64,000 nucleotides of DNA from Pirellula sp. (GTDB taxonomy: Bacteria; Planctomycetota; Planctomycetia; Pirellulales; Lacipirellulaceae). The notes beneath the pieces are model-generated. The model worked only from the letters and a program-made list of their open reading frames with translations, made no database searches and was not told where the DNA came from. Below, piece after piece: positions 21,443 to 42,506 of this stretch (position 1 is its first letter; every line of letters begins with the position of its first letter). The stretch spans positions 1-64,000 of the forward strand of contig PNKX01000023.1 of the NCBI GenBank assembly GCA_013822725.1. Reading direction: 5' to 3'. Both the position numbers and the translations under genes were made by a program.

Positions 21443-21537
21443 AAAAAGCCGCGACCGGCGGTCGCGGGCATTTTTCGATTTTTTGCGTGGGCGGGCCGTG
21501 GTTTTGGGGCCTCGCGACCAGCGGTCGCGGCTTTTTG
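21443..21537. repeat. REP doublet (REPIN) flanking the RAYT, left copy
   Basis: Two palindromes in opposite orientation: AAAAAGCCGCGACCGGCGG... at 21443-21468 and ...CAGCGGTCGCGGCTTTTT at 21513-21535. Each is itself a hairpin with GCGACC/GGTCGC arms, and the pair are inverted to each other. The layout is that of a REPIN. The same family flanks the other side of the transposase gene and occurs inside the VWA gene at 41856-41968. Confidence 0.85.
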
Positions 21538-21595
21538 CAGAAAACAGCAATATTGATTGTGGCATTTAGGGTATGTGCTCAATACCATCGCGGGC

Positions 21596-22100
21596 ATGGG
21601 ACAAACGATTGGTTACCACATCGTGATATCCGGCTACGGGCTCTGGCTGCCGGGCGATGAACGTGGGCATTGGTCGGAGGCTTGGGACGCGGAACTTGGT
21701 TATATCGAGCCGCACACGCTGCATGCGGGAGACGCGATGCGGCGACGGATGGCGCTAGAACGGCAAAAATGCCCGCCAACGAAATTGACGTCACGCATGC
21801 AAGCGGTCGTCAAAGAGACGCTTGAGCGAAATGGAATCAGATTGGTCGTTCGCCGCCATTGCGATTGAGGCGACTCACGCCCATCTATTGATGACGCGTA
21901 CCAGTCGCGAAGTCGACAACGTCGTCAAATGGCTGAAAGATCAGGCGACCAAGGCGATTCATCGCCAGACGCCGCACCAGGGGCCGGTGTGGTGCAAAGG
22001 CCGTTGGCGGTCGTTCATCTTCGATGAACAAGTTTGGCGGAACACGCAGCGCTATATCAAACGCCACAACGAACGCCGCAGCATTGCGTCAAACGCATAA
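21596..22100 (+). pseudogene. REP-associated tyrosine transposase (RAYT), frameshifted
   Basis: A HUH-type IS200-like transposase of the RAYT group, which process REP sequences. The first frame (from ATG 21596; a GTG-like extension reaches 21557) encodes GQTIGYHIVISGYGLWLPGDERG, typical of this group, and stops at 21868. The second frame (open from about 21789, +1 relative to the first) encodes IEATHAHLLMT, the His-x-His metal motif, and a C-terminal GRWRSFIFDEQVWRNTQRYIKRHNE. Joining the frames around 21832-21847 gives one complete protein of about 168 residues. Either a one-base change has killed the gene or the ribosome shifts frame. REP doublets lie on both sides. Confidence 0.83.
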
Positions 22101-22186
22101 AGCCGCGACCGGTGGTCGCGGCGGCGTCAAAATCGGGCGTCGTCGATCGTGCGAAATACCCGCGACCACCGGTCGCGGCTTTTTTC
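22099..22186. repeat. REP doublet (REPIN) flanking the RAYT, right copy
   Basis: AAAGCCGCGACCGGTGGTCG at 22099-22118 and CCGCGACCACCGGTCGCGG followed by CTTTTTT at 22160-22184 form an inverted pair of palindromes. The first overlaps the stop codon of the transposase frame; the last T-run touches the stop codon of the kinase gene on the other strand. Its T-rich end could also terminate transcription. Confidence 0.87.
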
Positions 22187-39971: not shown

Positions 39972-42506
39972 TTACGCCAACTTCAACAACCGCCGCAACA
40001 ACCACTCTGAACAAAGCGCCCCGCAAATCACCGCCAGCAACCACTGATTCAGCGACTCCGCAAACGCCTCATCGGGCTTGCCGCGCAGAATCTTCGTCTC
40101 CGCCCGGCTCTCGATCAACTCGCCAGCCGGCGGCAACGCGCTGTCGCCGGTCGCCGCCAACTGCGGGCTGGCGTAATACTTCCCTCCAGATCGCGCCGCG
40201 ATCGCCGTCAACAATTCTTCGTTCCGCCGCGTCTCGGCAAACTCCAAATCGGGGACCGTCGCCGTGATCCGCTTCACGAGCGGCTCGTCAGTCTGCTCCG
40301 GCGGCGCCAGTTCAATCCGATAGGAACCCTCGTTTGAGACAGTGAACTGCCCCACAAAGTTCCCCGGTCGGCTTTCGTCCGCAATGAGATCGATGTTCAC
40401 TCCTTGATTGTTCGGCCCCGTGACGCGCGCCGATACCCGCGGCACATCCAACGGTTCGCGACTCGGCGTGCTGAGTTGGGCCCGCACGACCACCGTATCA
40501 CCAACGAAGTAGCGGTCACGCTCCACGAGCAACCGGCCGACTGACGAGCCGCGCAGCAGTCGCCCCTGACTCACATGCCGCACGAGTTGCGTGTAGAGCC
40601 GTTCGTAGTACCCCGGATCGAGCGTCCTTAGCCGCCAAAGCTCGCCGCTCCCCATATAGAAGACGCGGCCGGCGCCGTAAAACTGGTCGGCGAAATAGAC
40701 GGGCCGTTCTACCGAGATTCCTGCTTCCGGGTCGCTGTAGCGACCATACACCTGGGCGCCTGGCTTCGGTCCCTTTACGGCGTAACAACCGAATACGCCG
40801 GGGAACCGCGACCACCGGTCGCGGCTTTCCTCGGGGGTGTCCCCCAGCCACAAGAAGTCGGCCTCTATCCCCTCGCGCGTCATTTCAATCTGCCAAGGCG
40901 TCTGCGATCCATACAACCCATCGTCGAGCAGCGTCATCCGCTGCTGGAACTCTACCGGGTAAAGAGCCCGAATCTTGCCGTGCTCTGGACTCTGCACCCA
41001 GCTGGCCGTATGGACCGGTCCCGCCACGACGATCAAGCCGCCCGCCTCTTCAGCGACCCACTGTTCCAGCAGATCGACCTGTTGCGCGTCGAGTTGCGTC
41101 CAGTCGGGATCAAACGCGACGATCACGTCGTAGTCGAACAACTCCTCCTTGGTCGAGGGGAACGCTTCCAATACCTTGTCGGCGTCCTGCGAAATGCCTG
41201 GCGGCGACATCTGCAACCAGACGTCGACGTTCGCATGGCGGTCGCGTTTCAGCTGATTCCGCAGGAAGCGATAGTCGCGCGTCGCTCCGCTGGCGATCAA
41301 TAGTACCTTCGTGCTGGTTTCGACGACGTCGATCTCCGCGCTGCGGCGGTTATCGTCGCCATATTGGTCGTCGGGGGGGGCGACGATGCGGGCTTCGAGT
41401 TCGAGCCGCCCAATTGCCGCCGGCTCGATATCGAACTCCACCGGCACTGTTTCGCCTTCGGCTTCGAGCGTCACTTGTTCCTGCCCAATGCGGACCTCCG
41501 CGGCGCCCTCCCCTTCCCGGGCGTAAAGCTCCACGTCAAACGTCCGACCCGCGTAGCCCTCGCCCTGAACGAGCGCGCGAACCGCCACTTTGTCTTCGGG
41601 ATAGGCCCGCGACGGGGCGATCAATTCCTGCAGACGCAAGTTCCGGCGTGGCGCGGTCGAACCGACGCCCACGGTGACGATGGGCGACTTCGCCAGCGCT
41701 GCCGCATCGGCAACCGCCAGCGGATCGACGCCAAGGTTTTGTCCCCCGTCTGAGAACGCATAAATCCCAGCCAGCGGCCCGCCCGCCTGATCGGCAAGCG
41801 CCGCCGCCAGCGCATCGCCGAGCCGCGTCTCCGCCCCACTCGGCTTCAACGCCTCAAAAAGCCGCGACCGTTGGTCGCGGTCAGCGTCACGCACCGCGTC
41901 GCCCTCGCCAGTCGATTCCGCGGCGGCGTTTTCCGGCGGGGTCCCGCGACCGCCGGTCGCGGCTTTGTCGCGTTTCCATTGCGCCACGCGGCGGACGTCG
42001 GCGTCGAATACCGCCACCGTGACGTCGTGCTGGCTGCGCAGTTCCTTGATCAGCGGCGAATCCTGCAGCGCCCGCAACACGGCGTCGCTGCGACTCAGCC
42101 CCGCGTCATCGCCGACCTTCTCATCCTCCACCGCCATGCTTTGGCTGGCATCGACGAGCACCGCGACGCGCGACTCCGTGACGATTTCCTGATCAGTCCG
42201 CTTGAGCGGCTCCAGAAAAAAGACAATCGCCCCGGCGAACGCGACCAGCCGTAGGGCGCCAAGCACCAGCGTCGCCCACCGCGGCAACGCAACGCTCTCA
42301 CGCCGGTACTGCCACGCGACGAACACGACGAGCAGCACCGCCGCCACCGCCACGCCGAGCCACAGCCAGCGCGGATCGTCAAACTGCTCCAACCGCCCCA
42401 GCCGGTACGTCACCAGCTCATCGCCCCCAGCCGCTTGCGGCTTAGCGTCTACCCCCGACGAGGCCGCCGTCTGCCCGAACGTCAGCATTTGCATCCAGCC
42501 ATTCAT
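39972..42506 (-). CDS. VWA-domain membrane protein with in-frame REP insertions
   Basis: An 844-residue membrane protein. Two helices lie at about 48-66 and 80-98, followed by a von Willebrand A domain whose metal site begins DASQS (119-123), and a C-terminal helix (LNQWLLAVICGALCSEWLLRRL). The middle contains a glutamine-amidotransferase-like alpha/beta region (YDVIVAFDPDWTQLDAQQVDLLEQWV ... GGLIVVAG) seen in related planctomycete proteins. Residues 181-217 are encoded by an inserted REP doublet that splits the VWA domain, and residues 561-569 by a solitary REP. Its ATG overlaps the stop of the BatA-like gene by four bases (ATGA). Confidence 0.87.
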   Translation of the reverse strand: MNGWMQMLTFGQTAASSGVDAKPQAAGGDELVTYRLGRLEQFDDPRWLWLGVAVAAVLLVVFVAWQYRRESVALPRWATLVLGALRLVAFAGAIVFFLEPLKRTDQEIVTESRVAVLVDASQSMAVEDEKVGDDAGLSRSDAVLRALQDSPLIKELRSQHDVTVAVFDADVRRVAQWKRDKAATGGRGTPPENAAAESTGEGDAVRDADRDQRSRLFEALKPSGAETRLGDALAAALADQAGGPLAGIYAFSDGGQNLGVDPLAVADAAALAKSPIVTVGVGSTAPRRNLRLQELIAPSRAYPEDKVAVRALVQGEGYAGRTFDVELYAREGEGAAEVRIGQEQVTLEAEGETVPVEFDIEPAAIGRLELEARIVAPPDDQYGDDNRRSAEIDVVETSTKVLLIASGATRDYRFLRNQLKRDRHANVDVWLQMSPPGISQDADKVLEAFPSTKEELFDYDVIVAFDPDWTQLDAQQVDLLEQWVAEEAGGLIVVAGPVHTASWVQSPEHGKIRALYPVEFQQRMTLLDDGLYGSQTPWQIEMTREGIEADFLWLGDTPEESRDRWSRFPGVFGCYAVKGPKPGAQVYGRYSDPEAGISVERPVYFADQFYGAGRVFYMGSGELWRLRTLDPGYYERLYTQLVRHVSQGRLLRGSSVGRLLVERDRYFVGDTVVVRAQLSTPSREPLDVPRVSARVTGPNNQGVNIDLIADESRPGNFVGQFTVSNEGSYRIELAPPEQTDEPLVKRITATVPDLEFAETRRNEELLTAIAARSGGKYYASPQLAATGDSALPPAGELIESRAETKILRGKPDEAFAESLNQWLLAVICGALCSEWLLRRLLKLA
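40806..40830. repeat. Solitary REP inside the VWA gene
   Basis: CCGCGACCACCGGTCGCGGC followed by TTTCC is the same palindrome as the units flanking the RAYT at 22160-22182. It is read on the minus strand as SRDRWSRFP. I find no inverted partner nearby. Confidence 0.82.
41856..41968. repeat. In-frame REP doublet (REPIN) inside the VWA gene
   Basis: AAAAAGCCGCGACCGTTGG at 41856-41874 and CGCGACCGCCGGTCGCGGC followed by TTTG near 41944-41967 are inverted REP units about 60 bases apart. The order and orientation match the doublets that flank the RAYT at 21.4-22.2 kb. The reading frame of the VWA gene passes through without a stop. Confidence 0.88.

Follow-up and report, generated by a model that had tools for sequence, protein, structure and literature searches.

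A REPIN of a RAYT-associated family, probably inserted in frame, in a VWA-domain protein gene of Lacipirellula

A gene for an 844-residue VWA-domain protein of the genus Lacipirellula carries, wholly within its reading frame, an inverted pair of REP units of the same family that flanks a RAYT-like transposase gene. This feature is very probably a REPIN of the RAYT-associated Lacipirellula family that was inserted in frame before the species carrying it separated, and that has been tolerated in a variable loop. Events of this kind are already known from other bacteria, and the VWA case is a further instance; the conserved stems of the element, and a third, gap-free REP copy in the same gene, are the parts worth following.

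The window (the 64,000-nucleotide stretch of DNA that was analysed) forms contig 23 of a draft genome (4.98 Mb) of this genus (G000). The closest of its named relatives is L. limnantheis I41 (taken to be genome G003), the sole match in a homologue search of genome contigs, with 89% identity; another complete genome from this genus is referred to below as G004. The VWA protein shares 89% identity with its counterpart in L. limnantheis and 87% with that in G004.

A REP doublet lies in frame within the VWA gene

The VWA gene has genes for MoxR-type AAA, DUF58 and BatA-type proteins upstream of it. A Pfam search of the 844-residue protein found no domain; a model of residues 95-330 matched VWA-fold structures in the PDB, one of them an aerotolerance-related VWA protein. 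Two inverted REP units, AAAGCCGCGACCGTTGGTCGCGG and AAAGCCGCGACCGGCGGTCGCGG, are separated by 63 nt and both lie wholly within the minus-strand open reading frame, with the frame kept throughout (Table 1). The original prediction had placed a REP doublet in frame within this gene, which the exact units, their geometry and the open frame bear out, and had identified it with the inverted pair around the RAYT gene, where the same units are indeed found (21447-22180). When the doublet was folded, only one of 200 shuffled sequences gave a better structure (z = -2.5 as single-stranded DNA and -3.2 as RNA). In the AlphaFold prediction the peptide encoded by the spacer has pLDDT values below 50, and that encoded by the 3' arm is modelled in a helix.

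Table 1. Positions of the REP elements and associated genes in the window.
Feature	Position	Strand	Product or basis
Host gene, 844-aa VWA-domain protein	39972..42506	-	ORF translation, neighbourhood, PDB fold matches
REP unit 1, 5' arm in gene direction, AAAGCCGCGACCGGCGGTCGCGG	41944..41966	-	Encodes (K)AATGGRG, residues 181-187
REPIN spacer, 63 nt	41881..41943	-	Encodes approximately residues 188-208; predicted disordered
REP unit 2, inverted, 3' arm in gene direction, AAAGCCGCGACCGTTGGTCGCGG	41858..41880	+	Encodes DRDQRSRL, residues 209-216
Third REP, exact 23-mer	40806..40828	-	Encodes SRDRWSR, residues 561-567 of the VWA protein
REP doublet, one side of RAYT-like gene	21445..21533		REP matches
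RAYT-like (Y1 transposase) gene, two overlapping frames	21557..22100	+	Broken near 21850
REP doublet, other side of RAYT-like gene	22099..22182		REP matches

The doublet belongs to a dispersed REP family with a RAYT-like gene

The 21-nt core of the REP occurs at 30 places in the window genome and at 39 in G004, and the reversed control gave 0 matches. Doublets are present at about nine loci of G004 and at several in the window genome. The family thus combines many dispersed palindromic copies, inverted doublets that can form hairpins and have spacers of variable length, and a Y1/HUH tyrosine transposase gene with these REPs on both sides, all of which are features of REP/REPIN families with a RAYT. 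It lacks the terminal tag of the GTAG and CGTC REP superfamilies: the consensus flank is AnAAAG, with GTAG found near two of 67 copies and CGTC near six.

These counts bear on whether residues 181-217 might be an ordinary ancestral linker that matches the REPs by chance. The stretch is of low complexity and is variable in all homologues, as such a linker could be. However, a codon-usage model predicts 0.010 core matches in all the coding DNA of the window genome, and here two exact inverted units stand 63 nt apart in a single gene. With no match in the reversed control, we consider a chance resemblance extremely improbable and reject it.

Relative to the open G004 copy, the RAYT-like frame of the window differs by five bases and is broken as a result, a point that the original prediction had overlooked; the split could reflect either decay of the gene or a fault in the assembly. 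The open frame in G004 has REP doublets on both flanks and matches the Pfam model Y1_Tnp above its cut-off; its best NCBIfam model is REP_Tyr_transpos (E 6e-8, below the cut-off of that model). No close RAYT copy was detected when one was sought in L. limnantheis, in which few REPs are left. It is such a RAYT that would have moved the REPIN into the VWA gene. The RAYT-like gene and the VWA gene are approximately 20-22 kb apart in the window genome (21400-42506) and also in G004 (L102). The RAYT-like gene of the window ends in a stop codon, TAA, that belongs to the neighbouring REP (TAAAGCC; 22095-22121), and the TAG of GTAG REPs has been reported to serve likewise.

Homologues suggest an insertion that predates the split of three species

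In an alignment of 29 homologues, the region linking the VWA strand (VTVAVFDADVRRVAQW) to the helix that precedes ETRLGDAL varies freely in length and sequence, and at the site of residues 181-217 the homologues have residues of their own that are unrelated and variable in length. The doublet is found at the identical site in L. limnantheis and G004, and the reading frame is open in all three species that carry it. In G002, the closest relative that lacks the doublet, this region is 15 residues shorter.

The original prediction expected homologues to show a gap exactly over residues 181-217. There is no clean gap there in the 29-homologue alignment because the loop varies in length in all homologues. 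Similar residues at these positions, which the same prediction would have read as a sign of ancestral sequence, are confined to L. limnantheis and G004, both of which carry the doublet; its presence in both places the insertion in an ancestor that they share with the window species and leaves the idea of an insertion standing. We also sought an empty site with exact junctions in the VWA gene among the homologues and found none, since the loop itself is hypervariable, and insertion is inferred from loop length together with the common repeat. A recent insertion is rejected, as the doublet is common to three species. Most simply, the alignments suggest that the insertion took place before L. limnantheis, G004 and the window species separated, and that the loop was already variable at that time.

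The REPIN would therefore have entered the gene in frame before these species diverged, at a site in the loop between a VWA beta-strand and the helix just ahead of the metal-binding motif's T (ETRLGDAL). Since this loop is variable in length, approximately 15 added residues should leave the VWA fold undisturbed, and the encoded peptide may have been kept as a near-neutral addition. That a REPIN can be tolerated within a gene, as originally proposed, is in keeping with the frame, the predicted disorder of the loop and the open reading frame in three species, whereas the proposed addition of about 37 residues shrinks to a net gain of only 15 relative to G002.

Other genes carry in-frame copies of the same REP

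Further in-frame copies were identified with a codon model, translations and alignments to relatives. The valS gene has an in-frame doublet in the window genome and in G004, at a position where the loop is short or unrelated in L. limnantheis, G001 and the outgroups; judged by sequence alignment, this is the cleanest insertion among the in-frame copies of the family. An in-frame doublet in a variable loop of uvrA in G004 is absent from the relatives aligned (the gene of the window genome was not recovered). In the valS, uvrA and VWA alignments alike the insertion keeps the frame and there are homologues without it, as in protein-coding palindromic elements. In-frame singlets occur in a dnaA-like gene of the window genome, L. 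limnantheis and G004 (both DnaA domains are found by Pfam, and the best NCBIfam model is DnaA, below its cut-off), in the gene for a PQQ-propeller membrane protein of the window genome and G004, and in the gene for a YhaN-like AAA protein of three species; the tail of a small protein in the window genome and G004 also contains an in-frame REP copy. One candidate REP in G004 (L117), with one mismatch and no AAAG tag, was treated as a chance match.

The REPs in genes have reading frames free of stop codons (for example KAATGGRG, KPRPVVA, SRDRWSR, DRDHRSRL, PRPPVAA and ATTGRGF), and in-frame copies can therefore be read as peptide. This carries a warning for annotation, as blocks such as KAATGGRG, KPRPVVA and DRDHRSRL in Lacipirellula proteins are derived from the repeat and are not homologous motifs.

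Approximately seven of the 34 elements in G004 are intragenic, a count made on retrieved regions with a codon model that was trained for this analysis, and not from annotation. REPs close to predicted starts (L007, L011, L012, L029 and L103, and L074, L077 and L087 in G005) were left out of the intragenic count because an over-long start prediction is their likely cause. Coding sequence makes up about 90% of a bacterial genome. Random placement would thus put about 30 of the 34 elements within genes, compared with the seven or so seen, and insertions into genes must therefore mostly have been removed. Selection would remove most genic insertions, and flexible loops and tails would keep the survivors.

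Some of these loops have repeats of other kinds in relatives that lack a REPIN there. In G002, TGDAIAAA-type repeats stand beside the ValS loop, and in G001 the UvrA loop contains QLAPRAS repeats (L154, L153 comparison).

Comparison with known intragenic palindromic elements

REPs and REP dimers inside open reading frames have been catalogued in many species, the PVC phyla among them (Di Nocera et al., 2013; PMC3733652). Those intragenic GTAG and CGTC REPs and dimers encode 20-30 residues, sometimes with two insertions in one gene, and their targets include uvrA and tRNA-synthetase genes. The intragenic Lacipirellula elements resemble them in being REPs and inverted dimers that lie wholly within genes and in having uvrA and a tRNA-synthetase gene as targets, but carry neither the GTAG nor the CGTC tag. 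They also differ in that orthologous copies can be traced across three species, whereas the earlier catalogue mentions only the case of two Xanthomonas with different REPs at approximately one recB site.

The classic example of palindromes that code for protein is that of the Rickettsia palindromic elements, which are likewise small palindromic repeats with open frames that lie in frame within conserved protein genes; one product that bears such an element, Gmk, was shown to be translated and active (Ogata et al., 2000, 2002, as reviewed in PMC2229807). They are 105-146 bp long, unrelated in sequence and restricted to Rickettsia, whereas the Lacipirellula element, a REPIN of the RAYT type, measures about 110 bp. 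It was in Pseudomonas that REPINs were defined, and the REPINs and RAYTs of that genus share with those of Lacipirellula the inverted REP doublets, the diverse spacer and the REP-flanked tyrosine transposase gene; their distribution is described as extragenic, in contrast to the one fifth or so of Lacipirellula elements that are intragenic (Bertels and Rainey, 2011; PMC3116915).

Lacipirellula adds a planctomycete genus to the few systems with REPINs in translated genes, and it offers two complete or near-complete genomes with a common set of orthologous REP sites. A comparison of G004, with its open RAYT, and L. limnantheis, with no close RAYT detected, makes it possible to measure how intragenic REPs are retained, how they decay and whether they are rewritten.

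A third REP in the VWA gene lies at a site that is gap-free in all homologues aligned

The VWA gene contains a third REP at some distance from the doublet, which the original prediction had overlooked (Table 1). Its seven codons are present, gap-free and with no change in length, in all 29 homologues aligned, and the corresponding sequences in L. limnantheis and G004 are AATCGGGCTCGATGGAGTCGC and AATCGCGCGCGGTGGGGACGC, respectively. Changes private to the window sequence number six within these 23 nt, compared with a mean of 1.6 for the gene, and 51 of 2491 windows along the gene reach six. The window sequence differs from that of L. limnantheis at 11 sites (mean 4.25). At the protein level NRARWSR has become SRDRWSR, and the prior residues already resembled one REP frame.

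From the alignment, this copy looks to have arisen by replacement of the resident sequence and not by insertion. It could be the product of conversion with another REP as donor, or of a template switch that corrected a quasi-palindrome, and coincident ordinary substitutions are unlikely. The wider proposal, that resident coding sequence can be overwritten by REP sequence at unchanged length, is a tentative one that we consider rather unlikely. If true, it would point to REP single strands being copied by annealing to near-matching DNA as well as by insertion, and the same process would keep the stems of intragenic REPs identical.

The stems of the doublet are conserved and its spacer is not

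In both arms of the VWA doublet, 19 of 20 nucleotides are invariant in the three species. Among arm codons with a conserved residue, 13 of 14 are identical in the three species (6.5 expected, P = 9e-5), the expectation being taken from how well each codon is itself conserved across six genes and corrected for codon bias. The spacer, by contrast, has diverged between the three species in both sequence and length, and is 12 nt longer in G004. L. limnantheis retains both arms, with only the A-tracts eroded. Conservation of the stems elsewhere is weak when each gene is taken alone (valS, P = 0.04; the dnaA-like gene, P = 0.10; other genes not significant).

The stems may be held by a constraint on the hairpin or by correction of one arm from the other. 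It is possible, though we would not favour it, that they are identical through repeated conversion from other REPs, or through template switching between arms, and not through selection. Consistent with such rewriting, the third REP replaces resident sequence without a change in length, and among REP copies the loop bases vary while the stems are constant. However, direct evidence of conversion at the VWA doublet is absent, and L. limnantheis retains the stems despite having very few donor copies in its genome.

A further alternative is that the stems have been recruited as a nucleic-acid element (an mRNA hairpin, an internal attenuator or a protein-binding site), with the peptide being incidental. 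We regard this as unlikely, even though silent sites in the stems are conserved while the spacer has diverged, including in L. limnantheis with its few REPs and no close RAYT detected. The stem-conservation test is significant for one gene only, and arm-to-arm correction could conserve the stems without any function. The preferred reading remains that of a REPIN tolerated in frame. Read on the gene strand, 41862-41880 gives a terminator-like hairpin followed by CTTTTTG within the VWA open reading frame, as a nucleic-acid role might predict; in L. limnantheis the T-run is interrupted (CTTGCT), and a terminator role is therefore not conserved.
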